From Alcanivorax sp. (GTDB lineage: Bacteria > Pseudomonadota > Gammaproteobacteria > Pseudomonadales > Alcanivoracaceae), in assembly GCA_017794945.1 (NCBI GenBank), contig CP051239.1, positions 2,408,692 through 2,472,691 of the forward strand: a stretch of 64,000 bases of DNA, written 5' to 3'. The notes beneath the pieces were generated by a model. That model was not told the origin of the DNA and ran no database searches. It saw only the letters and a program-made list of their open reading frames with translations. Position 1 is the stretch's first letter; each line of letters begins with the position of its first letter. The translations under genes were made by a program, and so were the position numbers. Shown here one piece after another: positions 1 to 64,000 of the stretch.

Positions 1-1
1 T

Positions 2-1225
2 AAAGAAACAGTGTTGGTTTTGGCCTCAACTTTCCCTAGGTGGCCTGGTGACGGCCAGCCACGGTTTGTTCTGGATTTATGTAAAAAGCTAAAATACGAA
101 TACAATATTATTGTGCTTGCTCCCGGTTGCCTGGGGGCAAAAGATGAAGAGGTGTTGGAAGGAGTATCCGTAACACGATTTCATTATGCCCCGCGGCGCT
201 TCGAAAGCGTAGCTTATGGTGGCGGTATCCTCTCCCAACTTCGGAGTAACAAATTCAGATTTTTTTGGTTGCCTTTTTTCTTTGTGTCGATGATTATCCA
301 TACTTTTTTTATTATTCGCCGTCATCGATGCTCAATTGTCCATGCTCATTGGATTGTTCCTCAAGGTTTGGCGGCTTGTATGGCCCTACTGTGTTTTCGC
401 CGTAAGAATAGACCAAGACTCGTGTTGACGTCTCATGGCGCTGACCTTTATTCGCTAAATGGCTGGCCTTTACGCATGTTAAAGGCATGGGTTTTGTCCC
501 GAAGCGTGAGAGTATCCGTCGTTAGCAATGCTATGAAAAACCGCGTTCTAGCGCTGGTGCCTGAGGCATCCAGTAAGCTTCGTGTGATTCCCATGGGTAC
601 AGATATTGTACAAAGATTTCGACCAGTTACCTCTGTAAAGACTATCCACCCGTCTTTTTTATTTGTAGGTAGGTTGGTCGAAAAAAAAGGAGTTCGCGTT
701 CTGCTTCGGGCTATGCGGGAAGTTTTAGTATCCATCCCCAATGCGGAATTGAAGGTTGTCGGGGACGGTCCGTTACGAGAATCATTGGAAGAGTACTGTT
801 TAGAGTTAAAAATTGAAAACTCCGTAGTTTTTGTTGGTGGCATGCAACAACATGAGCTTGTTAACTATTATTCAGAAGCACACGCTGCTGTTTTTCCTTT
901 TGTGGTGGCATCCAATGGTGATCAAGAAGGGCTTGGGCTGGTGGTAGTAGAAGCCCAAGCTTGTAAGACTTTAGTTATTACAACTGATATTCCCGCGACA
1001 GAGGACACTATGTTTTGTGACGATCAGAAGGAATGGCTCGTCCCAAAAAATGACTACTTGGCTCTGTCGGAAAAAATGAAAAAGGTTGCTATGCTCGATC
1101 AGGACGAGTTGACATCGAAACTAGAACATTGGCGTAACCAAGCCAAGCAGCGCTTTGATTGGTCGATCATAAGTAGTCGGTATTCGAAAGAGATCTATAG
1201 GTTCGAAAATGGACCCATTGAATAA
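2..1225 (+). CDS. glycosyltransferase family 4, 5' end outside window
   Basis: Retaining GT-B glycosyltransferase that probably adds a sugar to a lipid-linked surface polysaccharide at the inner membrane face. The N-terminal acceptor half opens with LASTFPRWPGDGQPRF. A C-terminal nucleotide-sugar half has GRLVEKKG near residue 220 and the GT4 E-x7-E region EGLGLVVVEAQA near residue 306. A GTG at 11 could start a 404-aa protein, but the frame stays open to the window edge (codons for K-E-T precede it). The true start therefore probably lies a few codons upstream and the gene is listed as partial. Its 3' end overlaps the next glycosyltransferase by 17 bases, so the two are likely co-transcribed. 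Base composition is clearly AT-richer than the DNA after 6 kb, consistent with a transferred polysaccharide locus. The sugar specificity cannot be read. Confidence 0.85.
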   Translation, partial: KETVLVLASTFPRWPGDGQPRFVLDLCKKLKYEYNIIVLAPGCLGAKDEEVLEGVSVTRFHYAPRRFESVAYGGGILSQLRSNKFRFFWLPFFFVSMIIHTFFIIRRHRCSIVHAHWIVPQGLAACMALLCFRRKNRPRLVLTSHGADLYSLNGWPLRMLKAWVLSRSVRVSVVSNAMKNRVLALVPEASSKLRVIPMGTDIVQRFRPVTSVKTIHPSFLFVGRLVEKKGVRVLLRAMREVLVSIPNAELKVVGDGPLRESLEEYCLELKIENSVVFVGGMQQHELVNYYSEAHAAVFPFVVASNGDQEGLGLVVVEAQACKTLVITTDIPATEDTMFCDDQKEWLVPKNDYLALSEKMKKVAMLDQDELTSKLEHWRNQAKQRFDWSIISSRYSKEIYRFENGPIE

Positions 1226-2261
1226 GTCGTTCTCGTTAGGCGTATGGTTTTTGGCTGTAAAAACCGGAACTGGGACTGACGTTTTTACGGAAACGTTGGC
1301 CGATTACTTGTCGAGCCAAGGTGTTAAAAATTCAATAACCTGGTTGCCGCATCGTGCTGAATACGCTCCTTGGTCAGTGGCTGTGCCTTCTCCACCGGAT
1401 TGGGCGACTGTCATTCACGTTAATACCTGGCTACCCCATAGATTTTTGCCGAAAAGCATTCCCATGATGGCGACAATGCATCTATGTGTACATGACCCTG
1501 AACTTCAGAAGTATAAAGGTTTTTTAAGAACGCTTTATCATCGTTTTTGGATAAAATATAATGAGAATAAAATAATAAAAGCCGCCGATGAATTGGTTGC
1601 TGTTAGCAAAAGCACAGCTCGGGTCACGAAACACGTGTTTGGGCTATCCGATGTGCCAGTTATTCATAACGGTATTACCACTAACAGCTTCAATAATCCG
1701 ATTGGTTGGAGGGTTAGAAAATCACCTTTTCGGTTACTTTACGTGGGTAGTTGGTCTAAACGCAAGGGAACAGATCTTTTGGCGCCGATAATGGAAGCCT
1801 TAGGACCTGGCTATGAACTTTGTTATACCGCTACACCTAGCGAGCAAAAACGTGGCCGGCCTATGCCTAAAAATTGTCGATGCGTCGGCCGATTGTCGAA
1901 AGGTCAGTTAGAACAAATGTATCTCGATGCTGATGCTTTCATTTTCCCATCGCGCTTGGAGGGCCTCGCCTTAGTTCTAGGGGAGGCGATGATTGCCGGT
2001 CTGCCTGTCATTGCATCTAACACTTCGTCGATGCCAGAAATTGTAGACAATGACACAGGTGTATTATGTAACACTGATAGTATTGAGGAGTTTGTGGCCG
2101 CCGCCAAGACTTTATCTTCCGAGGATCATCGTCGTTACTTAGATCGTTGTGTTAAAGCATTTGAGAAAGTAAGGAGTCAGTTTGATATCGCGAAGATGGG
2201 GCAGTCTTATCTAGAGCGTTACAAAGAAATTTCTTTGGCAAGGTGGAACTGTGAATCGTAA
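1209..2261 (+). CDS. glycosyltransferase family 4
   Basis: A 350-aa GT-B glycosyltransferase, probably the next sugar-adding step in the same glycan as the upstream enzyme. The donor-binding half is recognisable: YVGSWSKRKGTDLL around residue 178 and SRLEGLALVLGEAM around residue 248, the latter carrying the paired glutamates of GT4. The N-terminal half (HVNTWLPHRFLP, MATMHLCVHDPE) fits the acceptor domain. No signal peptide or membrane helix is evident, so it should be cytosolic or peripherally bound. The ATG lies inside the end of the upstream gene and the stop overlaps the sulfotransferase start by 11 bases, indicating translational coupling. Donor and acceptor are unknown. Confidence 0.85.
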   Translation: MDPLNKSFSLGVWFLAVKTGTGTDVFTETLADYLSSQGVKNSITWLPHRAEYAPWSVAVPSPPDWATVIHVNTWLPHRFLPKSIPMMATMHLCVHDPELQKYKGFLRTLYHRFWIKYNENKIIKAADELVAVSKSTARVTKHVFGLSDVPVIHNGITTNSFNNPIGWRVRKSPFRLLYVGSWSKRKGTDLLAPIMEALGPGYELCYTATPSEQKRGRPMPKNCRCVGRLSKGQLEQMYLDADAFIFPSRLEGLALVLGEAMIAGLPVIASNTSSMPEIVDNDTGVLCNTDSIEEFVAAAKTLSSEDHRRYLDRCVKAFEKVRSQFDIAKMGQSYLERYKEISLARWNCES

Positions 2262-3165
2262 GGTGATTAAACCAAACTTTTTTATACTGGGTGCGCCTAA
2301 ATGTGGCACGACGTCTGTCGCTGCATGGCTTTCTGAACACTCTGAAGTTTTTTTTTCACCCATAAAAGAACCTATGTTTTTCTATACAGATGCAGCAGTT
2401 CGTTATGTCAATCGGTTGGATAGGTATGAGCAGCTCTTCCAGGGTGCAAATTCAAGCCATCAAGCAATCGGAGAGGCGTCAACGCGATATTTATTTTCTG
2501 AGAATGCTGTTCCTGAAATACTCAAATATACGACTAAGCCCCGTTTCATTGTCATGCTCCGAAACCCCGTCGAAATGGCTCAGGCTTTACATCAACAGTC
2601 GCTTTTTGATGGGGATGAGAATATAAAAAGCTTTGATAAGGCTTGGAGTTTGCAGCGAGATAGGGAGAATGGAAGGAATATTCCTAAAGGTTGTTTTGAC
2701 GTTAATAGACTATTTTATGGCCAGGTCTGTCGTCTAGGTAGCCAGCTAAAACGACTGTATGAGCGTGTTCCAAAAGAAGACGTGCTCCTCATACGAAATG
2801 AGGATTTAAAGATCGACCCACAAGGACAGTACCGTCGAATACTTGGACATCTGAAGCTTAAAGACGATGGACGTCATATCTTTCCTATACATAACGAAGC
2901 CAAAGCTCATCGGTTCGGTGTGGTTTGGCATATTCTAAGAGCTATGCATCGCTATATTAGAAAATTTGGTGGCCCTCACATAAGGTCCAGGCTCGTTCAG
3001 CACTTATTTGAACTAGATCAGCAGCCGAGACAGAGAAAGCAATTATCAAATGAGACCGAAAGTCAAATGATAGAATATTTTTTTTCAGAGATTGAACTCT
3101 TAGAGGAGTTAACCGGCTGGGATCTGTCTGCCTGGAAGCGACCGATTATGTCATCGCGTGCGTAG
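2251..3165 (+). CDS. PAPS-dependent sulfotransferase
   Basis: A 304-aa sulfotransferase-fold protein that should transfer sulfate from PAPS to a hydroxyl, here most likely on the surface glycan built by its neighbours. The 5'-phosphosulfate-binding loop is GAPKCGTTS at about residues 14-22, and a 3'-phosphate-binding stretch VMLRNPVEMA lies near residue 101. The Lys-Cys-Gly-Thr-Thr form of the loop is typical of the bacterial family. Translation starts at a GTG overlapping the preceding gene by 11 bases. Length is normal. The substrate is inferred only from context, and a lipid or protein substrate is not excluded. Confidence 0.8.
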   Translation: MNRKVIKPNFFILGAPKCGTTSVAAWLSEHSEVFFSPIKEPMFFYTDAAVRYVNRLDRYEQLFQGANSSHQAIGEASTRYLFSENAVPEILKYTTKPRFIVMLRNPVEMAQALHQQSLFDGDENIKSFDKAWSLQRDRENGRNIPKGCFDVNRLFYGQVCRLGSQLKRLYERVPKEDVLLIRNEDLKIDPQGQYRRILGHLKLKDDGRHIFPIHNEAKAHRFGVVWHILRAMHRYIRKFGGPHIRSRLVQHLFELDQQPRQRKQLSNETESQMIEYFFSEIELLEELTGWDLSAWKRPIMSSRA

Positions 3166-3191
3166 TTCTATCAAAAGTCGATTTTTATATT

Positions 3192-3956
3192 ATGAAACCA
3201 AAACAAGATGCAATCGTCCCGAAAAATATTTTAAACCTTTTGACGGCATCATCGCGATTTGATTTGTGGGCTGGTTTTATAAAACAGCAGAAAATAAAGG
3301 TGATTGCTGAAGTTGGTGTTTATAGAGGATGTTTCTCCCAATTCATCTTAAAGGAATATCAGGGCATAGAAAAATACTACATGGTCGACCCCTGGCGGCA
3401 ATTGGATCGATGGTGCAAGCCAGCTAATCACGATAACTCGCGCTTTGAAAGCATAATGTCCGAAGCTCTGGATCGTAATAGTCGTTACATGGAAAAGATC
3501 AAAGTGCTAAGAGGAACCACTACTGAAGTTATAGAAGCAATAGCGGACGACGAACTGGATTTTGCCTATATAGACGGTGATCACACGTTAAGAGGTATCG
3601 CTATTGATTTGGTTCGGGTTTATCCTAAGATCAGGGTTGGGGGTTGGCTTGCCGGCGATGACTTCTCGAGCTCCATCTGGCAGCATCCCACCAGTTATGA
3701 ACCTACATTAGTGTTTCCGTTCGCCGTGTATTTTGCTGAGGCCGTCGGCGCGCGTATATATGCGTTGCCCCATTCTCAGTTCTTGATAGAAAAGCAAGAG
3801 GTGGATGAGTTTGAGTTTTTTGATCTCACTGGCAAATACACAGATTTATCTATAAAAAGTCATGTTGGCACGGTAAAGATTGTTCTCCTGAATGTTTTGA
3901 GTTTTCTACCCTTTTCTGACGCGATCTTTAAGGTGGTAAGGAAGTTTTTCCAGTAA
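3192..3956 (+). CDS. class I SAM-dependent methyltransferase-like protein
   Basis: A 254-aa protein with a Rossmann-type methyltransferase core: motif I VIAEVGVYRGCF near residue 37, an acidic motif YYMVDPW near residue 63, and FAYIDGDHTLRG near residue 124. The YIDGDH motif is characteristic of small class I methyltransferases (Methyltransf_24 style) found in polysaccharide loci, where they O-methylate a sugar. It starts 26 bases after the sulfotransferase and closes the plus-strand part of the island. Methylation of a sugar is inference from context. Composition is AT-rich like its neighbours. Confidence 0.7.
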   Translation: MKPKQDAIVPKNILNLLTASSRFDLWAGFIKQQKIKVIAEVGVYRGCFSQFILKEYQGIEKYYMVDPWRQLDRWCKPANHDNSRFESIMSEALDRNSRYMEKIKVLRGTTTEVIEAIADDELDFAYIDGDHTLRGIAIDLVRVYPKIRVGGWLAGDDFSSSIWQHPTSYEPTLVFPFAVYFAEAVGARIYALPHSQFLIEKQEVDEFEFFDLTGKYTDLSIKSHVGTVKIVLLNVLSFLPFSDAIFKVVRKFFQ

Positions 3957-4262
3957 GATCTCTGAAGCATAATTTTTTTCGTGTGCTCCGTTTGGGTTTT
4001 AGAACAAAAATTTTCGCTAGAAGTCGGAAAGATAAAGAGAGTTTTAGCGAATGCCTATTTCGGCGATCTGTAGTTGCGTGGCAATTGAGGCGAGACCGTG
4101 GCCTCCCTATCCCCTTCATTCTTATTTTCCGTCTTTTTTGCTAAGACTGCATGGCGCGCCTACCTTTCTAAATCACGCCCGGTTTTCTTAGTCGATCTAA
4201 GATGGTTGTTTAGAAAAATTTGTGTGTCGATGATGTCCTGTCTTGTGTCTCTGATTTCGATT
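3957..4262 (+). pseudogene. probable decayed coding remnant
   Basis: This 300-base stretch between the methyltransferase and the flippase has no intact gene. One plus frame is open from the end of the methyltransferase to about 4143 (FFRVLRLGFRTKIFA, then GLPIPFILIFRLFC). A second plus frame continues with similar character to 4262 (FFAKTAWRAYLSKSRP, then FLVDLRWLFRKI). One frameshift would join them into about 100 residues without a convincing start. I do not recognise the family. The remainder to 4307 holds nothing I can name. Confidence 0.3.
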
Positions 4263-4307
4263 TAGGCCTTTGGTTGGCCAGAAGAATTCAGGAAGGCATA
4301 GGATACA

Positions 4308-5558
4308 TTAAGACTGTTTTATTTTAGATACAATACTGAACCCAGACGCCGTAATCGTCCATTGGGAGATGACGTAGGAGAGTGCTAGACCGAGTACACC
4401 GAAGTATGGTGATAACGCGCTTGCACTGATTATCAAAACCAAGATGCCCAATAATTCGCATAGCACTCGTTTGAGCGGTTGGCCCAAAGACACAAGCGTA
4501 TTGTTGGCTACTACACGTAGCGCCATCGCAGGCACCGCCAAGCAGAAAACGCGAAAAATTTCCGTTAGTGACGCATAGCTATGGCCAAATAAATGGCTAA
4601 TAAAAGGCGCAAGCCACCATAACGCCATGGCGAGCACAAGAGAATAGGTGAAAGAGAATAAAATCGTGTGGCGCAAAAGGCGGTTGTCACGGCCAGGTGT
4701 CGCTGCACGAAATAATCGGGGCAGTGCCGAGAGCATCATGGCCGATACAGGCAGCGTCAAGGCCCCTGCAGTTCGTCCCGCCACGGCGTAAAGACCCGAG
4801 AGGTGTGGTGTTAAGAGATATGGCGCCATGGCTTTGTCTATTTCCGACGGGGCTGCTGTGACGATATCCATCACACCAAAACCTGCGGCTTCTTTTAATT
4901 CTATTAGACGGGGTGCCCTCCAGGTCCTTATATTTGGAGGGTTTGCGGCTTTGGTGGAAAGCATGGCCGTTAGAGTTATGGCCGATGTTCCGAGATATAA
5001 CGCAGCGTATAGCTGCAATGGCTGATCGGACTGTGTGGCGAGCAGCATGGTTGCTGCTAGAAAACGCAGTCCCAGGGGGAGGGTTTGAATTAGTTGTGAG
5101 CTCGCGATTCGGCCGCGGCCTACTTGCGCCATGGCAAAAAGGGTTATTAACGGAGCCGTAAGTAGCTCAGCAGTGGCTATAGCAAGTAATGGCCATATTC
5201 CAAAACCCAGTTGAGTTGGGATCAGACAGTACGCAGCCGGTAGGAATATCGAAAATAGAATTGAGCTGGTCGCTAGCGTGGTTGGTATGGCATAGCTAAG
5301 CACGGATGCCTCAGTATGACTGTCCTGTGCCGTGCTACGAAGAAGAGGGTATTGCGTGCCAAATGTCGCTAGTTTTCCGAGCAACATGGCCGATGCCATT
5401 ACCGCTGCAAGTAGACCAAACTGGGCGGGGCCCAGCAATCGCGCTAATACGATAAGGTGGCCTGCCTGAAAGAGCAGGCGCAGGCCTAAGACTCCTGTTG
5501 TCCGAATGCTTGCACTGGCAATAGGTCCTTTGAGGAATCGGATGAGCCTCTCAAGCAT
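4308..5558 (-). CDS. polysaccharide flippase (Wzx/MATE-like)
   Basis: A polytopic membrane protein of the oligosaccharide flippase class that would move lipid-linked glycan units across the inner membrane. The sequence is an almost continuous run of hydrophobic helices. The N-terminal signature is TTGVLGLRLLFQAGH followed by ARLLGPAQFGLLA, as in O-antigen flippases. The internal PSEIDKAMAPYLL region, with charged residues facing the pore, is also typical. The start is uncertain: the ATG at 5558 (MLERLIRF) matches family N-termini, while an in-frame GTG at 5597 would add 13 alanine-rich residues; neither has a good Shine-Dalgarno. It lies convergent to the glycosyltransferase block. Composition is intermediate between the island and the high-GC chromosome. 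Confidence 0.8.
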   Translation of the reverse strand: MLERLIRFLKGPIASASIRTTGVLGLRLLFQAGHLIVLARLLGPAQFGLLAAVMASAMLLGKLATFGTQYPLLRSTAQDSHTEASVLSYAIPTTLATSSILFSIFLPAAYCLIPTQLGFGIWPLLAIATAELLTAPLITLFAMAQVGRGRIASSQLIQTLPLGLRFLAATMLLATQSDQPLQLYAALYLGTSAITLTAMLSTKAANPPNIRTWRAPRLIELKEAAGFGVMDIVTAAPSEIDKAMAPYLLTPHLSGLYAVAGRTAGALTLPVSAMMLSALPRLFRAATPGRDNRLLRHTILFSFTYSLVLAMALWWLAPFISHLFGHSYASLTEIFRVFCLAVPAMALRVVANNTLVSLGQPLKRVLCELLGILVLIISASALSPYFGVLGLALSYVISQWTITASGFSIVSKIKQS

Positions 5559-5694
5559 GATAAAGGTTTGTTGATTTGCTGCCGCCGCAGCGCCCACGGG
5601 TATGGATAATCGGTTTGCCGTCCTGCCGGATCAGGTGGTGACTGTATGAAAGCACGCTACCTATTTTCTCGATTAACTCCCTAATGTCCATGAC

Positions 5695-57757: not shown

Positions 57758-58123
57758 TTAGACTTCAAGGCTGAAGAGGCGGCCTTTTACTTCTTCCAGG
57801 CGCTGGGCGGCGTTGAGGGCCTCTTCCGGGGGGATCTGGCGGATCAGTTCGCCGTTGTCGCGGTCGATCAGGCGGATGATGGTGCGCCCGGAGTCCTCGC
57901 TCAGTTGAAACTCCACACCGTAGCGGCGCAGCACGTCGTTGATCCGCTGGACCGGTTTGACCAGCTCCTCCCGTTCTACCATCCGACCTTCCGAATCGCT
58001 TTCCTGCGCCGCGCCGGCGGCGGGCAGCTGCGCCAACACCTTTTCCACGCGCTGGCGCGCGGCCTGGTAGGAGAATTGCGAAGGCAGCGATGAAACGCTG
58101 TTGTTGTCCACGGGCGTGGTCAT
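57758..58123 (-). CDS. flaG: FlaG family protein
   Basis: A 121-aa small cytosolic protein of the FlaG family, which in polar-flagellated bacteria affects filament length. The conserved region is LVKPVQRINDVLRRYGVEFQ followed by SEDSGRTIIRLIDRDNGELI and RQIPPEEALNAAQRL. The ATG at 58123 was chosen over an upstream in-frame codon at 58186. In many relatives flaG sits between fliC and fliD; here it is separated from fliC by the large glycosyltransferase gene and fliD is absent. Confidence 0.88.
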   Translation of the reverse strand: MTTPVDNNSVSSLPSQFSYQAARQRVEKVLAQLPAAGAAQESDSEGRMVEREELVKPVQRINDVLRRYGVEFQLSEDSGRTIIRLIDRDNGELIRQIPPEEALNAAQRLEEVKGRLFSLEV

Positions 58124-58242
58124 GGGCGGGCCCTCAGCCGATAGTGATATGCACAGGTTTGTACCTGTATCGACCGCCGCGCCCATAACTTTATGCCGCC
58201 ACCCGCCCAGGCTCGTAGAAGCGGGCCTTATGGAAGCGGGCT

Positions 58243-58322: not shown

Positions 58323-61300
58323 CTAAGCCGGCTGGAACCGATACTCTTCCAGCACCATGTCGATCCGTTCCGGATCAATGTCCTCGGCGATACGGAATAC
58401 CCCGGCGGTTTCCGCCGACTCTTCTTCCACCAGGAATTCGAGCACGGCGTGATAATGTGGCCGATTCCAGAAATCGTGGATGAACAGACGCGTCTCGCCG
58501 GGCTGGTCCGCGACGTTCAGCGTATGCCGGATCGCATTCAGCACGCAGGCGACGCGGAAACGGCCGTCCACCAGAATCAGATCGAAGGCCTGATCGTGGC
58601 GGTGGATGGCCTCGCTGTAGGCCGGGAAACGGTGACGCTCCGCATCCGAAGCGGGGAAGCCCCACGCCTTGGTGGGACCGATGTCCTCGGCGTGGACCTG
58701 ACAGGCTTCGCCGAGACGCTGCTTCAGTCCGTCGACCCAGGCGGCGTCGCTCTCCACGCCATGGACGGTCAAACCGGCCTGGCTTGCCCACACCGTGGAG
58801 CCGCCGGAGCCGAATTCGAAATAGCGGCCGGCCCGCTCCAGACTCTTTTTGAACAGCGCCTTTTCCTCCTCGGACATAAAGGGGGCGTCGGGAATGTCCG
58901 GTGTCCGCGGCGTCGCGGCATCACCGTTCAGGTCAGCCAGGTAGCGCGCCGCCTGCGTTTGATCCACCTCGTTGAGCAGGGCATAGGCGAGATCCTGGAT
59001 GCCGTAGACGGTATGCAACAAGAAAGCGAGCCGCGTTTTGCGGTTGTGGTCCAGTTCCGCCAGGCGCGAGGGCGCCGGCAACAGGAGCGCCTTGGCGGTT
59101 CTCAGCTCCGAGGCCTGGCGTTGCGGCCCCAGGTCCTCCGGCAGATGACTGACGTGCCCAACAGGATCAAGACGATAGAGGCGGAAGCCGTGTTCGTCGG
59201 CCCACCGGCACAACCCGGCCAGGTCTGGTTGGTTCGCCGGGCCGGGGCCGAAGCACACGGTGGCCTGGATCATCAGGGTGTGTTCCAGGGCGCGGGCGCC
59301 GTTGCACAGGGTGGCGAGGCTGTCGTTGCGGTGGTCCAGTACCAGCCAGTCCAGGCTCGGTAGTCCCTCGATGCTGTCCAGCGCCACTGTGTTGACCGGC
59401 AGTTCGGCGAGTACCCGGGCGCCCGGTCCGGATTCCGGCGCGGGCTTGAGGGTGCCGCTGAGCGTCGGGTCCAGGCACGCATAGTGGGTCGCCGGGTTGC
59501 CATCGCCGAGGGTGGTGCGCGGAAACACCTGCAGGCCGGTGCGTTGGCCGGCCGCCTGTGCCGCGTGCTCACCGAGCGGATCGAACACCAGCAGTTCGAA
59601 CGCGCCCAGCGGCAGCAGTGAGTCGGCCGCGCCGGCTGCCAACAGCTGCCCGCCGTTATCCAGGGCGACGACCTTACCGCTGAAATCAAACTGGAACCGA
59701 CCGGCGTTTTCCCGTCGTGCCGCCGCCTTGGCCAGGGTGATGAAAGGCATTCGCGGTTCCGGTACCGGAACCGCCTGATCCTCGAATTGGCCGGTGCCGT
59801 CCTGAGCGAAAGTCAGCGCGGCGGGTGGCAGGTCACGGCAATAGCGGTGCCAGATGCCCCGCAGGGCCGCGCTCAGGTGGGCGGCGAAGCGGGGCGCGTC
59901 GCACACCGGCGACCGCAGAAGCGTATCGCGAAGGTGGCGCCGCACGGTGGCCAGATTGTCCAGGTCGCTCGCCAGATCGCGGGCCCGGGCCCGGTAGGCG
60001 TCCCAGCTGTCCACCACCAGTTCCGGCAGGCCGGCGTTGACCAGGTGGGAGGCGGCGTGCCGGCCGGCGAAGGTAGGGCCGGGCAAGGTGATCACCGGTA
60101 CCCCCATCAACAGGGCTTCGCAGGTGGTCAGGCCGCCGGAGTAAGGCCACGGGTCCAGGGCGATGTCGATGCGGTTGTAGGTGTCCAGGAAGGCGGTGTG
60201 GTTTTCCGGGCCCTCCAGGCGCACACGCTGGCGCACGATACCCCGGTGCTCGAACTGTTCGTGCAGCGTTTCGCGGAAATCCGCGTCGCCGTATTGGGCG
60301 CCTTTCAAGAGTAGCCGGCTTTGCGGCACCTCTTCCATCAGACGGACCCACTCGTCGATCAGTCGTGGATTGATCTTGGCGGGGTTGTTCAGGCAGCCGA
60401 AGGTCACGTAGCCGTTGCGTAGGGCGGGCAGAGCCTCGACCGCCGGCGCGTAATGCGGTGGCTGATAACAGATGTAGTCGTCGGGCATGCGGATCAGCTT
60501 CTCCAGATACTGATCATCGTATCCGGCGGGTGTTTCCACGCTGTCGCTGATCAAATAGTCGATCGCCTCGAGGCCTGTGGTATTGACCAGGCCGCCGACC
60601 CATTTGACCAGCAACGGCGCCGGTTCGTCCGCCAACAGGCGCAGACGGTTGCCGTCGGTGTGGCCGTTGAGGTCGATCAGGATGTCCACCTGATCGTCCC
60701 GGATCAGGGAGGTCAGGGTGTCACGACGCGCGGTGGCGACCGAATGCCAACGGTGGCTGATCCGGCGTAATCGCGCGCTGATATGATCCTCGGTATTGCT
60801 GGTCGCATAGGCGATGAGCTGAAAATCATCCGCCGACAGATGCTCCAGGGCGGCCGTGATCATTTGGCCGACCGGGTGGCTTCGCAAGCCGGAGGAGAGC
60901 AAGCCGATGGTAAGCGGGCGGCCTTCGTCGCGGTTACCGGCGCGCTGACGAGACGGCCTGGGCCGGGGCTCGAAGGTGTCGCGCCACTGAAGCACCAGAT
61001 CGAGAATGTGTGCCCGGCTCAGAGCCGGGTTGTAATGGGCATTGAAGATGCGGTTGGAGAACGCCACCGCGTGTTGCGGATGGAGTCGCAGCGCTTCGCG
61101 ATAGTGGTGTTCGGCCTGTTCGAAGTGCCCCTGGTCGTTATACGTCGATCCCACCAGGTTGTGATAGTCCGGATTGTCGCTCCGCAGGGCGATCAGGCGT
61201 CGGCAATCCGCGAGCAGGCCGTCCATCCGCCGGGCGCGACCACGAATCTTGATACGGCGGTAGAGGATGTCCGCGTTGCTATTGTCCAGATCCCAGGCCC

Positions 61301-61676
61301 GATCAATGCATGCGACCGCCGCTTCGTGGTCGTTCAGCGTTTGCCAGGCTTCGGCCAGTTGCACCTGGGTGTAGGCGTGGTCGGGTCGCAGTTTCGCGGC
61401 TTGATTCAGCCGGGTCACCGCGGCGCGCCAGTGGTTCAGCGCCAGCTGACACTTGCCCAGTAAGTACAGGGTTTGTGCGTTATCGGCGTCGTGTTCAAGC
61501 GACGTTTCCAACGCCTGAAGGGCTTCCTGAGGACGACGCTGATTCAGCCGTGACGCGCCCAACCCCTGCCAGGCCATGGCATCGCGCCGGTCACGCTCGA
61601 CCAGGGCGATGGCGAGCTTCTCGGCTTCGACAAAGTTGCCGGCGTGGTAGGCACGCGCGAATTGTTTTGCGGACAT
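58323..61676 (-). CDS. TPR / GT41 O-GlcNAc-transferase-like / methyltransferase-like multidomain protein
   Basis: A 1117-aa cytosolic protein with several domains. Residues about 1-225 are TPR repeats (ALQALETSLEHDADNAQTLY). Residues about 245-610 resemble the OGT/SPINDLY GT41 domain: GLRSHPVGQMI, DILIDLNGHTDGNRL, TFGCLNNPAKINPRLIDEW, DPWPYSGGLTTCEALLMGVP and HAASHLVNAGLPELV. Around 760-840 lies an FkbM-like half domain (VALDSIEGLPSLDWLVLDH). Residues about 925-1117 form a class I methyltransferase fold (YFEFGSGGSTVW, FDLILVDGRFRVA). Its place directly downstream of flagellin suggests O-glycosylation of the filament; activity of the methyltransferase-like parts is unproven. The stop adjoins a half REP composite. 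Confidence 0.8.
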   Translation of the reverse strand: MSAKQFARAYHAGNFVEAEKLAIALVERDRRDAMAWQGLGASRLNQRRPQEALQALETSLEHDADNAQTLYLLGKCQLALNHWRAAVTRLNQAAKLRPDHAYTQVQLAEAWQTLNDHEAAVACIDRAWDLDNSNADILYRRIKIRGRARRMDGLLADCRRLIALRSDNPDYHNLVGSTYNDQGHFEQAEHHYREALRLHPQHAVAFSNRIFNAHYNPALSRAHILDLVLQWRDTFEPRPRPSRQRAGNRDEGRPLTIGLLSSGLRSHPVGQMITAALEHLSADDFQLIAYATSNTEDHISARLRRISHRWHSVATARRDTLTSLIRDDQVDILIDLNGHTDGNRLRLLADEPAPLLVKWVGGLVNTTGLEAIDYLISDSVETPAGYDDQYLEKLIRMPDDYICYQPPHYAPAVEALPALRNGYVTFGCLNNPAKINPRLIDEWVRLMEEVPQSRLLLKGAQYGDADFRETLHEQFEHRGIVRQRVRLEGPENHTAFLDTYNRIDIALDPWPYSGGLTTCEALLMGVPVITLPGPTFAGRHAASHLVNAGLPELVVDSWDAYRARARDLASDLDNLATVRRHLRDTLLRSPVCDAPRFAAHLSAALRGIWHRYCRDLPPAALTFAQDGTGQFEDQAVPVPEPRMPFITLAKAAARRENAGRFQFDFSGKVVALDNGGQLLAAGAADSLLPLGAFELLVFDPLGEHAAQAAGQRTGLQVFPRTTLGDGNPATHYACLDPTLSGTLKPAPESGPGARVLAELPVNTVALDSIEGLPSLDWLVLDHRNDSLATLCNGARALEHTLMIQATVCFGPGPANQPDLAGLCRWADEHGFRLYRLDPVGHVSHLPEDLGPQRQASELRTAKALLLPAPSRLAELDHNRKTRLAFLLHTVYGIQDLAYALLNEVDQTQAARYLADLNGDAATPRTPDIPDAPFMSEEEKALFKKSLERAGRYFEFGSGGSTVWASQAGLTVHGVESDAAWVDGLKQRLGEACQVHAEDIGPTKAWGFPASDAERHRFPAYSEAIHRHDQAFDLILVDGRFRVACVLNAIRHTLNVADQPGETRLFIHDFWNRPHYHAVLEFLVEEESAETAGVFRIAEDIDPERIDMVLEEYRFQPA

Positions 61677-61837: not shown

Positions 61838-62989
61838 TTAACCCAGCAGGGAAAGCACGCTCTGCGGTACCTGGTTGGCCTGTGCCAGTACGGAGGTGCC
61901 GGCCTGCTGCAGGATCTGCGCGCGGGTCATGTTGGACACTTCCACCGCGTAGTCGGCATCTTCGATGCGCGAACGGGCCGCGGACAGGTTGGTTTCGGTG
62001 GTGCTCAGGTTGGTGATCGCGGAATCGAAACGGTTCTGCATGGCACCCATTTCGGAGCGCAGGCTGTCCACGTCGCTGAGCGCGGAGTCCAGGGCCGCCA
62101 GCGGGTTCTCGGTGGCTACCTTGGTGGAATCGTCGGTCACGCCGCTCACTGCTTTGGCATCGGCGGCCACGGTGTAGCTGATGGTCGCGGAATCGGTGCC
62201 GTCGGCCGCGGTGCCGGACAGTTCCGCTTCGTAGTAACTTACTTCACCGCCGTTTACGTTCTTCACGAAGGCGTTGCCGTCATCGTCGATCACCAGGCTG
62301 TTGGTGCCGCTAGCCACGGGGGTGCCGGTCACGGTGCCCTCGGTGATGTCGGCGGCTTCCACTTCCAGATCACCGGAGGTGGTGGACGCGGTGGCCACCA
62401 CGGAGTAGCTGGCGCCGTCGATTTCGATGGAATCACCGGTCGCGGGCGCTTCGGCCAGACGGGTGTTCACGTTGAAGTCGTCCAGACCCAGGGTCTCGGC
62501 GTTGATTTCCTTCAGGTTCATGGTGATCTTCTCACCATCGTTGGCGCCGACCTGGATGGAGAATGCCTGATCTTCAGCCAGCACTTTCACGCCGTTGAAG
62601 TTGGTTTCACCGGAGATACGGTCGATCTCGCCCAGACGCTGGGTGATTTCGTCCTGGATAGAGTTCAGATCTTCCGGAGAGTTGGTGTCGTTCTGTGCCT
62701 GAACGGTCAGCTCACGGATGCGCTGCAGGTTGTCGTTCACCTGGTTGAGCGCGCCTTCAGCGGTCTGCGCCACGGAGATACCGTCGTTGGCGTTACGCTG
62801 GGCTTGTGCCAGACCGGTGGTCTGGGCGGTCATGCGGTTGGCGATGGCCTGGCCGGCGGCGTCGTCGGCGGCGCTGTTGATGCGCAGGCCGGAAGACAGA
62901 CGCTCCATGGAGGTCTGCAGAGCACTCTGGGATTTGCCCAGGTTCTGTTGGCCGATCATGGCCGTGATGTTGGTGTTGATAACTGACAT
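61838..62989 (-). CDS. fliC: flagellin
   Basis: The 383-aa filament subunit. The N-terminal D0/D1 region MSVINTNITAMIGQQNLGKS with LSSGLRINSAADDAAGQAIA and the C-terminal RSRIEDADYAVEVSNMTRAQ with ILQQAGTSVLAQANQVPQSV are intact. The central domain is short and rich in Thr/Ser/Ala (SYSVVATASTTSGDLEVEAA), offering possible O-glycosylation sites for the neighbouring GT41 protein. The ATG at 62989 was chosen over an in-frame upstream codon. It has a sigma-28 promoter 64 bases upstream and a strong terminator. Confidence 0.98.
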   Translation of the reverse strand: MSVINTNITAMIGQQNLGKSQSALQTSMERLSSGLRINSAADDAAGQAIANRMTAQTTGLAQAQRNANDGISVAQTAEGALNQVNDNLQRIRELTVQAQNDTNSPEDLNSIQDEITQRLGEIDRISGETNFNGVKVLAEDQAFSIQVGANDGEKITMNLKEINAETLGLDDFNVNTRLAEAPATGDSIEIDGASYSVVATASTTSGDLEVEAADITEGTVTGTPVASGTNSLVIDDDGNAFVKNVNGGEVSYYEAELSGTAADGTDSATISYTVAADAKAVSGVTDDSTKVATENPLAALDSALSDVDSLRSEMGAMQNRFDSAITNLSTTETNLSAARSRIEDADYAVEVSNMTRAQILQQAGTSVLAQANQVPQSVLSLLG

Positions 62990-63052
62990 AGCAAATGTCC
63001 TTTTGTGATTCACCGTTTGGTTTGAGAGCAACGGCGCTGGCCGTTACACCGT

Positions 63053-63079
63053 CTTTCGGCGGATTCGCGTTTCGCTTTA
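63053..63079 (-). promoter_or_regulatory. sigma-28 promoter of fliC
   Basis: Minus strand TAAAGCGA-N11-GCCGAAAG, correct FliA spacing, in the fliC-ycgR intergenic region. Confidence 0.88.
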
Positions 63080-63113
63080 GGGCTGGCGACAAAAAGTTTT
63101 GCCGGGCGCCTGT

Positions 63114-63140
63114 TAAAGGCCGTCCGTGCCTTGCCGATAG
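63114..63140 (+). promoter_or_regulatory. sigma-28 promoter of the ycgR-like gene
   Basis: TAAAGGCC-N11-GCCGATAG on the plus strand, 37 bases upstream of the ATG at 63178 and divergent from the fliC promoter, 35 bases apart. Confidence 0.85.
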
Positions 63141-63177
63141 AGACGGTCGTAGTAATCAAAAGGCGAGGGCCGTTGGC

Positions 63178-64000
63178 ATGACGTCGCAGGATGACGCGTT
63201 CAGCCGGGTGGAACATCCCCCGGAAATACAAGAATTACTGGAACATTTGAGCCAGCCAGGGGCGGCGTCCCTGGCGTTGGATAAGAATGGCGGTGAGCCG
63301 ATGCCGGTGGTGGTGTTCGAGGTGAACCCGGGGGAGAGCTTGCTGCTGGATATCAGCGCGATCCGGCATATCGCCGCTGATTTACGGCGCGGCGCCGGCT
63401 TTCGGTTGATGGGGCTGGCCCGCGGCGGGGTGTTACGTACGCCTTTGTTAAGCGCGGATATGTGCTTTGAGCGCGATGACAGAATGCTGTGCCGCTGCGA
63501 TTACCCACCGGAGATGGAGATTCTGCAGCGCCGGGATACCTTCCGGGCCGAGCTGCGGCTGGGCATGGAGGTGGGCGTGGTCCTGCGCGACCGGGACAGC
63601 GGCCTGTCCGCCCAGGGGGATCTGCGCGATCTGTCCTTGCAGGGCTGTCTGGTGGAGCTGTCGGCCAGTGCGATGACCGCGCTGATGTCCAATGCGGCGG
63701 TGTTCGAGCTGGAGTTGTTTTTCCCCAACGGCAGTCGTTTCGTGGTGCGTGGCAGTCCGCGTCATCAGAAGGCCGATGCGCAGCGCGGGCTGGTCAAAGT
63801 GGGGTTTCTGTTCGCCGAGCGCGGCGCCGAGGACGACCGGCGTTTGTGGTTCATGGTCCGCGAGATCGAGCGCGAGGCGGCGCGTATGGGGGGGACGTCG
63901 CGTACGCCCCTGGCGCCCTCGCAATTGTTCCAGGGCAAGAAAAACGAAGAGCACGGCACCGTGAGCCGCCGCCAGACGCACGATTACGCCACCGCGATGA
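63178..64000 (+). CDS. ycgR: YcgR-type PilZ flagellar brake protein, 3' end outside window
   Basis: At least 274 residues, open to the window end. The N-terminal YcgR domain (about residues 10-112) begins MTSQDDAFSRVEHPPEIQEL and includes EVNPGESLLLDISAIRHIAA. The PilZ domain starts with the c-di-GMP-binding motif R119-D-T-F-R123 (R-x3-R) and continues with D151-L-S-L-Q-G156, the second motif D/N-x-S-x-x-G. YcgR bound to c-di-GMP acts on the rotor/stator and slows swimming. A sigma-28 promoter precedes it. After the PilZ domain the frame continues at least 35 residues (TPLAPSQLFQGKKNEEHG), so the tail is longer than in many relatives. Confidence 0.88.
   Translation, partial: MTSQDDAFSRVEHPPEIQELLEHLSQPGAASLALDKNGGEPMPVVVFEVNPGESLLLDISAIRHIAADLRRGAGFRLMGLARGGVLRTPLLSADMCFERDDRMLCRCDYPPEMEILQRRDTFRAELRLGMEVGVVLRDRDSGLSAQGDLRDLSLQGCLVELSASAMTALMSNAAVFELELFFPNGSRFVVRGSPRHQKADAQRGLVKVGFLFAERGAEDDRRLWFMVREIEREAARMGGTSRTPLAPSQLFQGKKNEEHGTVSRRQTHDYATAM

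Follow-up and report, generated by a model that had tools for sequence, protein, structure and literature searches.

A TPR-GT41 protein beside flagellin in Alcanivorax carries a degenerate FkbM domain and an exchangeable methyltransferase-like tail

The gene behind the flagellin gene fliC in a 64,000-nucleotide stretch of Alcanivorax sp. DNA, hereafter the window, encodes a protein of 1117 amino acids, which we consider a rather probable flagellin-modifying enzyme composed of a TPR reader, a GT41 writer, a pseudo-FkbM socket that joins and an exchangeable tail that decorates. In the mechanism proposed here, the TPR superhelix would recognise the variable central region of flagellin and the GT41 domain would attach the first sugar to serine or threonine. 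An FkbM-derived domain that has lost its signature residues would act as a constant socket joining this writer to whatever follows, here a 3CVO-like SAM methyltransferase tail that would methylate the attached glycan, and in relatives a sulfotransferase, a glycosyltransferase, another methyltransferase or no tail is found in the same place.

The gene (58323-61676, minus strand) is a single unbroken frame with an ATG start and lies between fliC upstream and flaG downstream, all on the same strand. Homologues with the same core were found behind fliC across many genera, which is why the frame cannot be a chance one. The gene of the probable acceptor, fliC (61838..63031, minus strand), was identified by Flagellin_N (PF00669) and Flagellin_C (PF00700); its coordinates are those of a mechanical frame from TTG, and the real start is probably an ATG 14 codons in. 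The neighbour flaG (57758..58186, minus strand; PF03646) lies within a flank sharing 93.8% identity with the sister species, A. venustensis. AlphaFold2 prediction of the whole protein yielded a mean pLDDT of 86.2 and a pTM of 0.66, with low-confidence stretches at residues 852-854 and 918-925. The order of the domains is TPR, GT41, FkbM-derived domain and 3CVO-like tail. A preliminary description of this DNA had named an uninterrupted frame beside flagellin, this order of domains, the GT41 identity and a link to flagellin, all of which are borne out by the data presented here.

The TPR superhelix comprises residues 1-204 (61065..61676, minus strand) and is followed by a GT41 catalytic domain of the SPINDLY/OGT type at residues 205-611 (59844..61064, minus strand). 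Pfam returned several TPR families and Glyco_transf_41 (PF13844, E 2.4e-36) above cut-off, in line with the modelled helices, and the PDB sequence search matched SPINDLY over residues 66-619 (E 4.8e-85). The arrangement of TPRs followed by a split catalytic domain is that of GT41 enzymes, and both SPINDLY (7Y4I, 8DTF) and OGT were matched by sequence and fold. K434 corresponds to K665 of SPY, described in the portion of the literature available to us as an essential phosphate-binding lysine, and is kept in 78 of 81 GT41 members, two of the exceptions being gaps in interrupted copies. Phase variation was considered as the origin of the two interrupted copies (L125 and L130) and rejected, as no repeat tract was seen at their breaks. 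The donor-discriminating positions, here K458, T499 and Y512, are SPINDLY-like (K689, A731 and Y744 in SPY; L866, R904 and C917 in OGT). These three markers would fit GDP-fucose as the donor, but we did not adopt this candidate: the fucose/ribose contacts S496, T747 and T748 of SPY are replaced by P268, G515 and L516, and in the window's genome (estimated to be ~86% complete) the best match to gmd reached 52 bits, far below the cut-off of 415. Among 16 genomes checked, two contained gmd above cut-off.

To place the protein among its relatives, we used 120 distinct proteins (128 rows minus 8 identical ones) from stretches for which the middle domain, rather than fliC, served as the selection criterion; from 99 of 114 matching genomes 100 regions were taken, 15 genomes being left out, and the counts cover the family of those 114 genomes plus the window's genus. 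The middle domain itself (residues 612-913; 58938..59843, minus strand), when searched alone (about 612-913), had no match in Pfam and PDB sequence searches, and PF05050 gave nothing for the middle domains of the window's protein and of L032 and 14.1 bits, below the cut-off of 22.7, for that of L050. Its origin is apparent from hhalign comparison with the intact FkbM domains of relatives (probability 99.8, E 3.2e-29, 239 columns) and from the predicted fold, for which the crystal structure of an FkbM protein, 2PY6, ranked first among structural matches (Z 10.4, rmsd 2.9 over 151 residues), with the next rows tied. As the FkbM signature we defined the five positions fixed in 9/9 intact FkbM domains, i.e. 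N of motif I, E of FEP, and K, G and E of KIDxxGxE. They are retained in 6, 0, 0, 3 and 0 of the 120 middle domains, respectively, and in 111 of these, including the window's, none of the five is left. The middle domain is an FkbM fold from which the signature of working FkbM enzymes has been lost.

Throughout the 120 proteins, heads and tails differ but the middle domain stays constant, and from this constancy a role as socket is suggested. We term it a socket only, because a covariation test opposed the idea of a flagellin-docking hub: its divergence does not covary with that of the centre of fliC (partial r -0.09, as compared to 0.30 for the TPR), and the hub was rejected. The socket is dispensable for fusion as such, since GT41 is fused to a 3CVO tail in L051 and to GT2 in L052, the middle domain being absent from both; these two and L054, also a GT41 protein lacking the middle domain, stand outside the 120. 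The middle domain was also met as a free-standing protein behind fliC, devoid of head and tail, in L165, L178 and L185, all from one genus. A serious, if somewhat doubtful, alternative to the socket is that the domain binds another ligand or catalyses another reaction in a rebuilt pocket, e.g. by holding the glycan for the tail. Strands 1, 2 and 4 end in newly conserved residues (D673 in 119/120, N674 in 108/120, D699 in 120/120, D781 in 117/120 and D785 in 110/120) for which a mere scaffold would have no use, and the free-standing copies point in the same direction. However, fold and sequence searches hint at no other function, and there is no known ligand.

The linker behind the middle domain (residues 914-931; 58884..58937, minus strand), with pLDDT below 50 at 918-925, is the place of tail exchange. 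The tail that follows (residues 932-1117; 58326..58883, minus strand) has a class I methyltransferase fold like that of 3CVO, which was matched over residues 938-1084 within the full protein (E 3.6e-17) and over the whole domain when the tail was searched alone (E 3.6e-18; 2.1e-34 with a profile). Searching the window's own genome with the tail profile retrieved this gene as the sole match. The SAM motif of the tail is intact. Across 28 tails of the 3CVO type, E954, G956, G958, S960 and D977 are present in all and G959 in 27; the stretch E954-F-G-S-G-G-S, which we take to be motif I, D977, presumably the acidic residue after strand 2, and D1037 are invariant or nearly so. The tail may methylate the attached glycan. 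We consider it unlikely that the tail is no methyltransferase at all and binds SAM or a glycan without transfer, or moves another group. Such an activity would be compatible with 3CVO having no assigned function, with Methyltransf_24 of Pfam staying below its cut-off on the tail, and with the motifs DIGPTxxWGxP and DGRFR, which are not known as classical methyltransferase motifs. The near-invariance of motif I, D977 and D1037 speaks against it, as does its replacement, at this very position, by other transferases in related proteins.

The preliminary description had offered two readings of the C-terminal half, one in which the FkbM-like segment and the terminal fold both methylate a flagellin sugar and one in which both are non-catalytic glycan-binding modules, and had proposed to look for intact SAM sites. 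The SAM motif is intact in the tail, and the middle domain has lost its signature residues; a non-catalytic module is the reading that fits the middle domain best, but it does not fit the tail. That both are working methyltransferases is very improbable, even though the class I fold is present in both and the pocket residues D673 and D781 remain in 119/120 and 117/120 proteins: E of FEP and K and E of KIDxxGxE, present in 9/9 intact FkbM domains, occur in 0/120 middle domains, and seven of the nine intact FkbM copies are fused, within the same proteins, behind a degenerate one and its helical extension.

Several lines of evidence connect the protein to flagellin. In 106 of the 120 distinct proteins fliC lies directly upstream on the same strand, and this linkage spans several families of Gammaproteobacteria as well as Bordetella/Achromobacter, with differing surrounding genes. 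As in flagellin glycosylation islands, a GT41 protein with a methyltransferase-fold domain stands beside fliC. Moreover, TPR divergence tracks that of the flagellin centre with a partial r of 0.30, which was matched by 0/500 permutations in a partial Mantel-type test that overstates significance among related rows, and for which 72 of the 81 GT41 members, those with an intact head and an adjacent same-strand fliC, were used. Of TPR, GT41 and middle domain, the TPR is the only one to behave in this way, which makes it the probable reader of the acceptor. We infer that flagellin is this acceptor and that the sugar would be O-linked; the protein would probably glycosylate flagellin first and afterwards finish the attached sugar. 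GT41 enzymes elsewhere act on many proteins, and linkage and covariation are indirect, so that fliC proximity could in principle reflect operon history and the substrate be another protein. The recurrence of fliC upstream in different families and gene surroundings, together with the TPR covariation, renders this highly unlikely.

Behind the constant middle domain the tail varies between methyltransferases, sulfotransferases, FkbM, GT2, GT56 and GT1/GT4 types, or is missing. It is not essential, as 25 of the 120 proteins are tailless. Tail classes are single-linkage clusters to which Pfam was applied on representatives or single members, and the mixMT/GT class is heterogeneous; the 21 counted 3CVO tails include L137, L143 and L145, which have an extra stretch in front, and in L137, the sole one of these run through Pfam, Sulfotransfer_4 was matched. 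On the middle-domain tree, at least 67 tail changes face 6 head changes. The GT41 tree, like the former a quick search, implies 50 tail changes, and a single origin of the 3CVO tail was rejected (AU p 0.0023). Tail labels on the GT41 tree are hardly less scattered than shuffled ones (50 vs 53.6 changes; equally low in 8/200 shuffles), a near-random scatter that fits rapid exchange and gives little tree signal.

The exchange is also visible in the DNA. In A. venustensis the core is the same but the tail is a sulfotransferase, and homology to the window stops at the first base of the linker and resumes behind the tail at 93.8% identity. As compared to L066 (two copies) and L067, homology ends at -23 to -28 and resumes at +849. 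In 15 comparisons, chosen from the tree and not at random, pairs with different tails had a sharp breakpoint at the junction in 11/11 cases and homologous flanks in 7/11, whereas homology continued through the tail in 2/2 same-tail controls. The tail is exchanged at a sharp junction. In one case, L037, a separate tail frame stands behind a tailless core. A plasmid as mobile vector was rejected, since tblastn with the middle domain (E 1e-10) found no match in 72,556 plasmid records. The clustering, the Pfam assignments, the quick trees and the mixed class might suggest that the variety of tails merely reflects how classes were defined, tree error or misassembly. Unless the assemblies are wrong, this is refuted by two agreeing trees from different domains, by sharp breakpoints between homologous flanks, such breakpoints being absent from the same-tail controls, and by the many independent genomes.

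GT41 proteins with AdoMet methyltransferase domains are already published from flagellin glycosylation islands of Enterobacteriaceae (De Maayer and Cowan 2016, PMC4875605). As far as the accessible parts of that paper go, these islands share with our locus a TPR/SPINDLY-type GT41 and one or more methyltransferase domains in one protein beside fliC, and are horizontally exchanged. The sugar inferred there, GlcNAc, is not supported by the donor-site residues of the 1117-aa protein, and the same parts mention neither lost FkbM residues nor a middle domain that stays constant, nor do they describe different tails joined to one core or tails of the sulfotransferase type. In the open-access literature we found no report of these remaining features. 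By its description, the 1127-aa Spy beside fliC in Erwinia flag-3a loci, with a methyltransferase domain termed pfam13649, is nearly identical in size, place and domain make-up, and the sections of the paper at hand give no module analysis (PMC7526173). SPINDLY O-fucosyltransferase shares the TPR-GT41 fold and K, Y and a small residue at the donor-discriminating positions; our protein differs in its sugar contacts, in the extra domains behind GT41 and in a genome in which gmd stays below cut-off. From FkbM methyltransferases (PF05050; 2PY6) the middle domain has kept fold and profile homology, whereas the SAM-site and motif IV signature is gone. With 3CVO, a methyltransferase-like protein, the tail has whole-domain sequence and motifs in common, but it is fused to a flagellin-linked GT41 core. 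Both trees and DNA breakpoints reveal a front that stays constant and a C-terminal cassette that is replaced at a well-defined junction, an arrangement that resembles polymorphic toxins, whose C-terminal catalytic cassettes are, according to the part of the source at hand, exchanged by recombination behind a constant front (PMC3482391). The protein would work like these without being a member: its presumed target is the cell's own flagellin, and nothing points to a toxin or immunity partner.

Taken together, a broader principle of polymorphic self-decoration is conceivable, though we put it forward tentatively: the degenerate FkbM fold may be a nearly universal socket behind fliC, with writers in front (GT41, GT4 and TPR-sulfotransferase heads were found) and finishing enzymes behind. 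As relatives replace the tail with other enzymes or with nothing, the chemistry of the flagellar surface could be changed by swapping one cassette, and a single recombination event would re-code this surface, most likely, as we can only surmise, under attack from phages, predators or hosts that recognise the flagellum. The window's tail being one of many interchangeable cassettes, which could be recognised only with the help of relatives, methylation would therefore be particular to the window's version. If this holds true, a pseudo-methyltransferase serving as constant joint for unrelated transferases would be an uncommon solution for constructing enzymes that act in several steps, and could offer a chassis for protein-glycan engineering. 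Flagellin glycan chemistry is hard to read off genomes, and the last cassette of one gene would then predict whether the flagellin glycan carries a methyl group, a sulfate, an extra sugar or nothing.

The minus strand of the window carries a gene (58323-61676) that is open over 1117 codons and lies, with both neighbours on the same strand, between fliC upstream (61838-63031) and flaG downstream (57758-58186). In the 1117-aa protein, TPRs and Glyco_transf_41 were above the Pfam cut-off, and PDB sequence searching assigned residues 66-619 to SPINDLY and residues 938-1084 to 3CVO, a methyltransferase-like protein of unknown function. The AlphaFold2 model of the full-length protein (28 rows; mean pLDDT 86.2, pTM 0.66, low at 852-854 and 918-925) had SPINDLY as top Foldseek match, followed by TtOGT and further OGTs. 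The preliminary description of one long frame with TPR, GT41, FkbM-like and methyltransferase-fold parts beside flagellin is confirmed. A divergent PilZ-domain gene (62995-63999) beside fliC runs off the window and has relatives at the equivalent place in several loci (586 aa in L032). At the start of the window lies another glycan cluster, of low G+C content (1-5597; 0.436 in 1-4000 vs mostly 0.63-0.68 elsewhere). It comprises two glycosyltransferases of GT4 type and a sulfotransferase, together with a Methyltransf_24 protein and a weak match to a polysaccharide exporter.

The earlier reading of the protein as a glycosyltransferase combined with methyltransferases is partly supported: the GT41 identity and the SAM motif of the tail agree with it, whereas a working FkbM enzyme in the middle is spoken against by lost signature residues. 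Modelled alone (24 rows; pLDDT 86.1, pTM 0.79), the middle domain (612-913) gave 35 Foldseek matches at E ≤0.001, with titles mostly of methyltransferases or enzymes with that fold. FkbM protein 2PY6 ranked first in a second structural comparison (Z 10.4, rmsd 2.9, 151 residues), tied with other methyltransferases, and profile comparison with the relatives' FkbM domains extended over 239 columns, terminal helical extension included (probability 99.8, E 3.2e-29). We aligned 120 distinct middle domains, window included, with nine intact FkbM domains that are tails within the same family. Five positions are fixed in all nine, i.e. N of motif I, E of F-E-P and K, G and E of K-I-D-x-x-G-x-E; they are kept in 6, 0, 0, 3 and 0 of the 120 middle domains, respectively, and 111 retain none. 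Conservation was gained or kept at other residues of this pocket, namely D673 (119/120), N674 (108/120), D699 (120/120), D781 (117/120) and D785 (110/120); in the model, D673, D699 and D781 are located where strands 1, 2 and 4 end. The middle domain therefore looks re-used rather than decaying. Free-standing middle domains of ~300 aa occur near fliC in three loci (L165:5980-6939, L178:5917-6831, L185:5986-6894), followed in L165 and L178 by a frame of ~400 aa with weak (26%) resemblance to a GT41 head.

Scanning one genome per species returned 33 loci. They come, among others, from Alloalcanivorax, several Halomonas-type genera, Parahaliea, Zobellella, Oceanimonas, Oceanisphaera, Siccibacter, Bordetella and Achromobacter; the weakest have GT41 or TPRs alone in common. 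At 1e-20, the middle-domain profile matched 114 of 275 genomes of one family, presumably that of Halomonas, and 16 of a sample of 390 from the window's order. The long match is present in 3 of 12 other genomes with the window's genus code. Of the 114 genomes, 99 supplied a total of 100 stretches, none longer than 17 kb. For 106 of the 120 distinct proteins, fliC lies directly upstream on the same strand within 600 bases. Of the 14 exceptions, three have an upstream fliC on the opposite strand, and in six fliC lies farther away or downstream; no fliC occurs in the stretch of two others, two genes are interrupted and one is a second tandem copy. Two tandem copies of the GT41 gene in one genome (L066:6372-13409) both have tails of the sulfotransferase cluster. 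Two genomes have the GT41 frame broken at a similar position (L125:4143-8697, L130:5866-8750), with no repeat tract seen at these breaks. A Geobacteraceae MAG encodes six GT41 domains in a 3763-aa frame (L058:3091-14382). The GT41 protein of Fodinibius sediminis (L054:9791-14299; 1502 aa) has two FkbM domains, lacks the middle domain and lies some 4 kb from a flagellin-like frame.

The middle domain is preceded by TPR-GT41 (81 of 120), GT4 (23), TPR-sulfotransferase (8), TPRs of unclear kind (4) or no head (4). It is followed by fewer than 80 aa in 25 proteins, by a 3CVO-type tail in 21 and by other tails in 74. Pfam typing of representatives of the latter revealed sulfotransferases (PF13469, PF17784, PF03567), FkbM (PF05050), further methyltransferases, GT2, GT56 (PF07429), GT1/GT4 types and a glycerophosphotransferase-like domain; two representatives had no Pfam match. 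In L051 and L052, GT41 is joined straight to a tail without a middle domain. The TPR-sulfotransferase heads form a sister architecture of eight loci (L159:4354-8241, L160, L163, L166, L167, L168, L171, L197) with the same middle domain and a tail cluster whose representative, L160, has TPR and methyltransferase matches.

A maximum-likelihood tree was built from the 120 middle domains. At least 67 changes are needed on it to explain the 20 tail classes (minimum possible 19; mean of 85.1 after shuffling), as against 6 for the head classes; the 3CVO class needs 17, of which 14 are forced by well-supported branches. On a second tree of 79 GT41 domains, the tail classes need 50 changes, as compared to a shuffled mean of 53.6, and the 3CVO class 16 (14 forced); a single clade of 3CVO-tailed proteins on this tree is rejected (AU test, p 0.0023). 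The nearest row to the window on both trees, Alloalcanivorax venustensis, has a sulfotransferase tail. DNA agreement between the two is 85.9% in fliC and its upstream side; the TPR part cannot be aligned, and agreement of 75.7% then extends to the first base past the middle domain. With unrelated tails in between, agreement resumes behind them at 93.8% over 3.3 kb. In 13 further close pairs, homology stopped -139 to +30 bases from the same junction in all 11 with different tails, resuming downstream inside the fetched stretch in 7, whereas it continued through the tail in both same-tail controls. Siccibacter colletis (L037) encodes the 3CVO tail as a frame of its own, downstream of a core that lacks a tail; this tail shares 89% identity with the one fused to the core in S. 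turicensis. At the end of the L189:4471-8211 tail, part of the middle-domain profile is matched a second time (89 bits), which may be the scar of an exchange.

The tail of the window's protein matches 3CVO at E 2.1e-34 (profile search), and profile comparison found no relation to FkbM domains (probability 0.5). Among the 120 tails, 27 match the 3CVO-type profile; with the separate L037 frame, this makes 28 sequences. E954, G956, G958, S960, D977, D1037, G1038, R1039 and R1041 are present in 28/28 and G959 in 27/28, so that the SAM motif proposed for the C-terminal methyltransferase fold is intact; this conservation supports SAM binding by the tail. Regarding the sugar donor, three residues separate SPINDLY from OGT according to PMC10027727, and GT41 here is SPINDLY-like, with K458 (K in 54, R in 26 of 81), T499 and Y512 (80/81); OGT has Arg in place of T499, a position read off the alignment from the PDB search. 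However, the SPY contacts to fucose or ribose are replaced by P268, G515 and L516, and gmd had no match above cut-off in the source genome, a single contig of 3.14 Mb with an estimated completeness of 86%, which leaves fucose not secure. Nor is GlcNAc secure, the donor that PMC4875605 (section 8) infers for the GT41s of islands.

GT41 enzymes with AdoMet methyltransferase domains are reported from enterobacterial fliC islands (194 strains, fifteen types; De Maayer and Cowan, PMC4875605), and, in Erwinia, a Spy protein of 1127 aa that lies beside fliC contains a methyltransferase domain (PMC7526173). Thus, the fusion is already known; FkbM and other methyltransferases are also listed for flagellar loci (PMC5109656, PMC6993521). 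In the open-access literature searched, we found neither the loss of FkbM residues nor the constancy of the middle domain mentioned, nor any exchange of tails or tails of sulfotransferase type; it is this construction with a constant middle domain and exchanged tails that we found undescribed there.

Finally, the window and A. venustensis proteins share 36% identity in the TPRs, 77% in GT41 and 72% in the middle domain, and their flagellins 81% overall and 50% in the centre. Among 72 GT41 members with adjacent fliC, the middle domain as acceptor reader is spoken against by a partial r of -0.09 with flagellin-centre distance, and GT41 showed no correlation either (-0.14). After allowing for GT41 and the flagellin ends, TPR distance correlated with flagellin-centre distance at a partial r of 0.30, reached in 0 of 500 permutations, a significance that is overstated among related rows. 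This covariation fits a role of the TPR part in recognising the acceptor.
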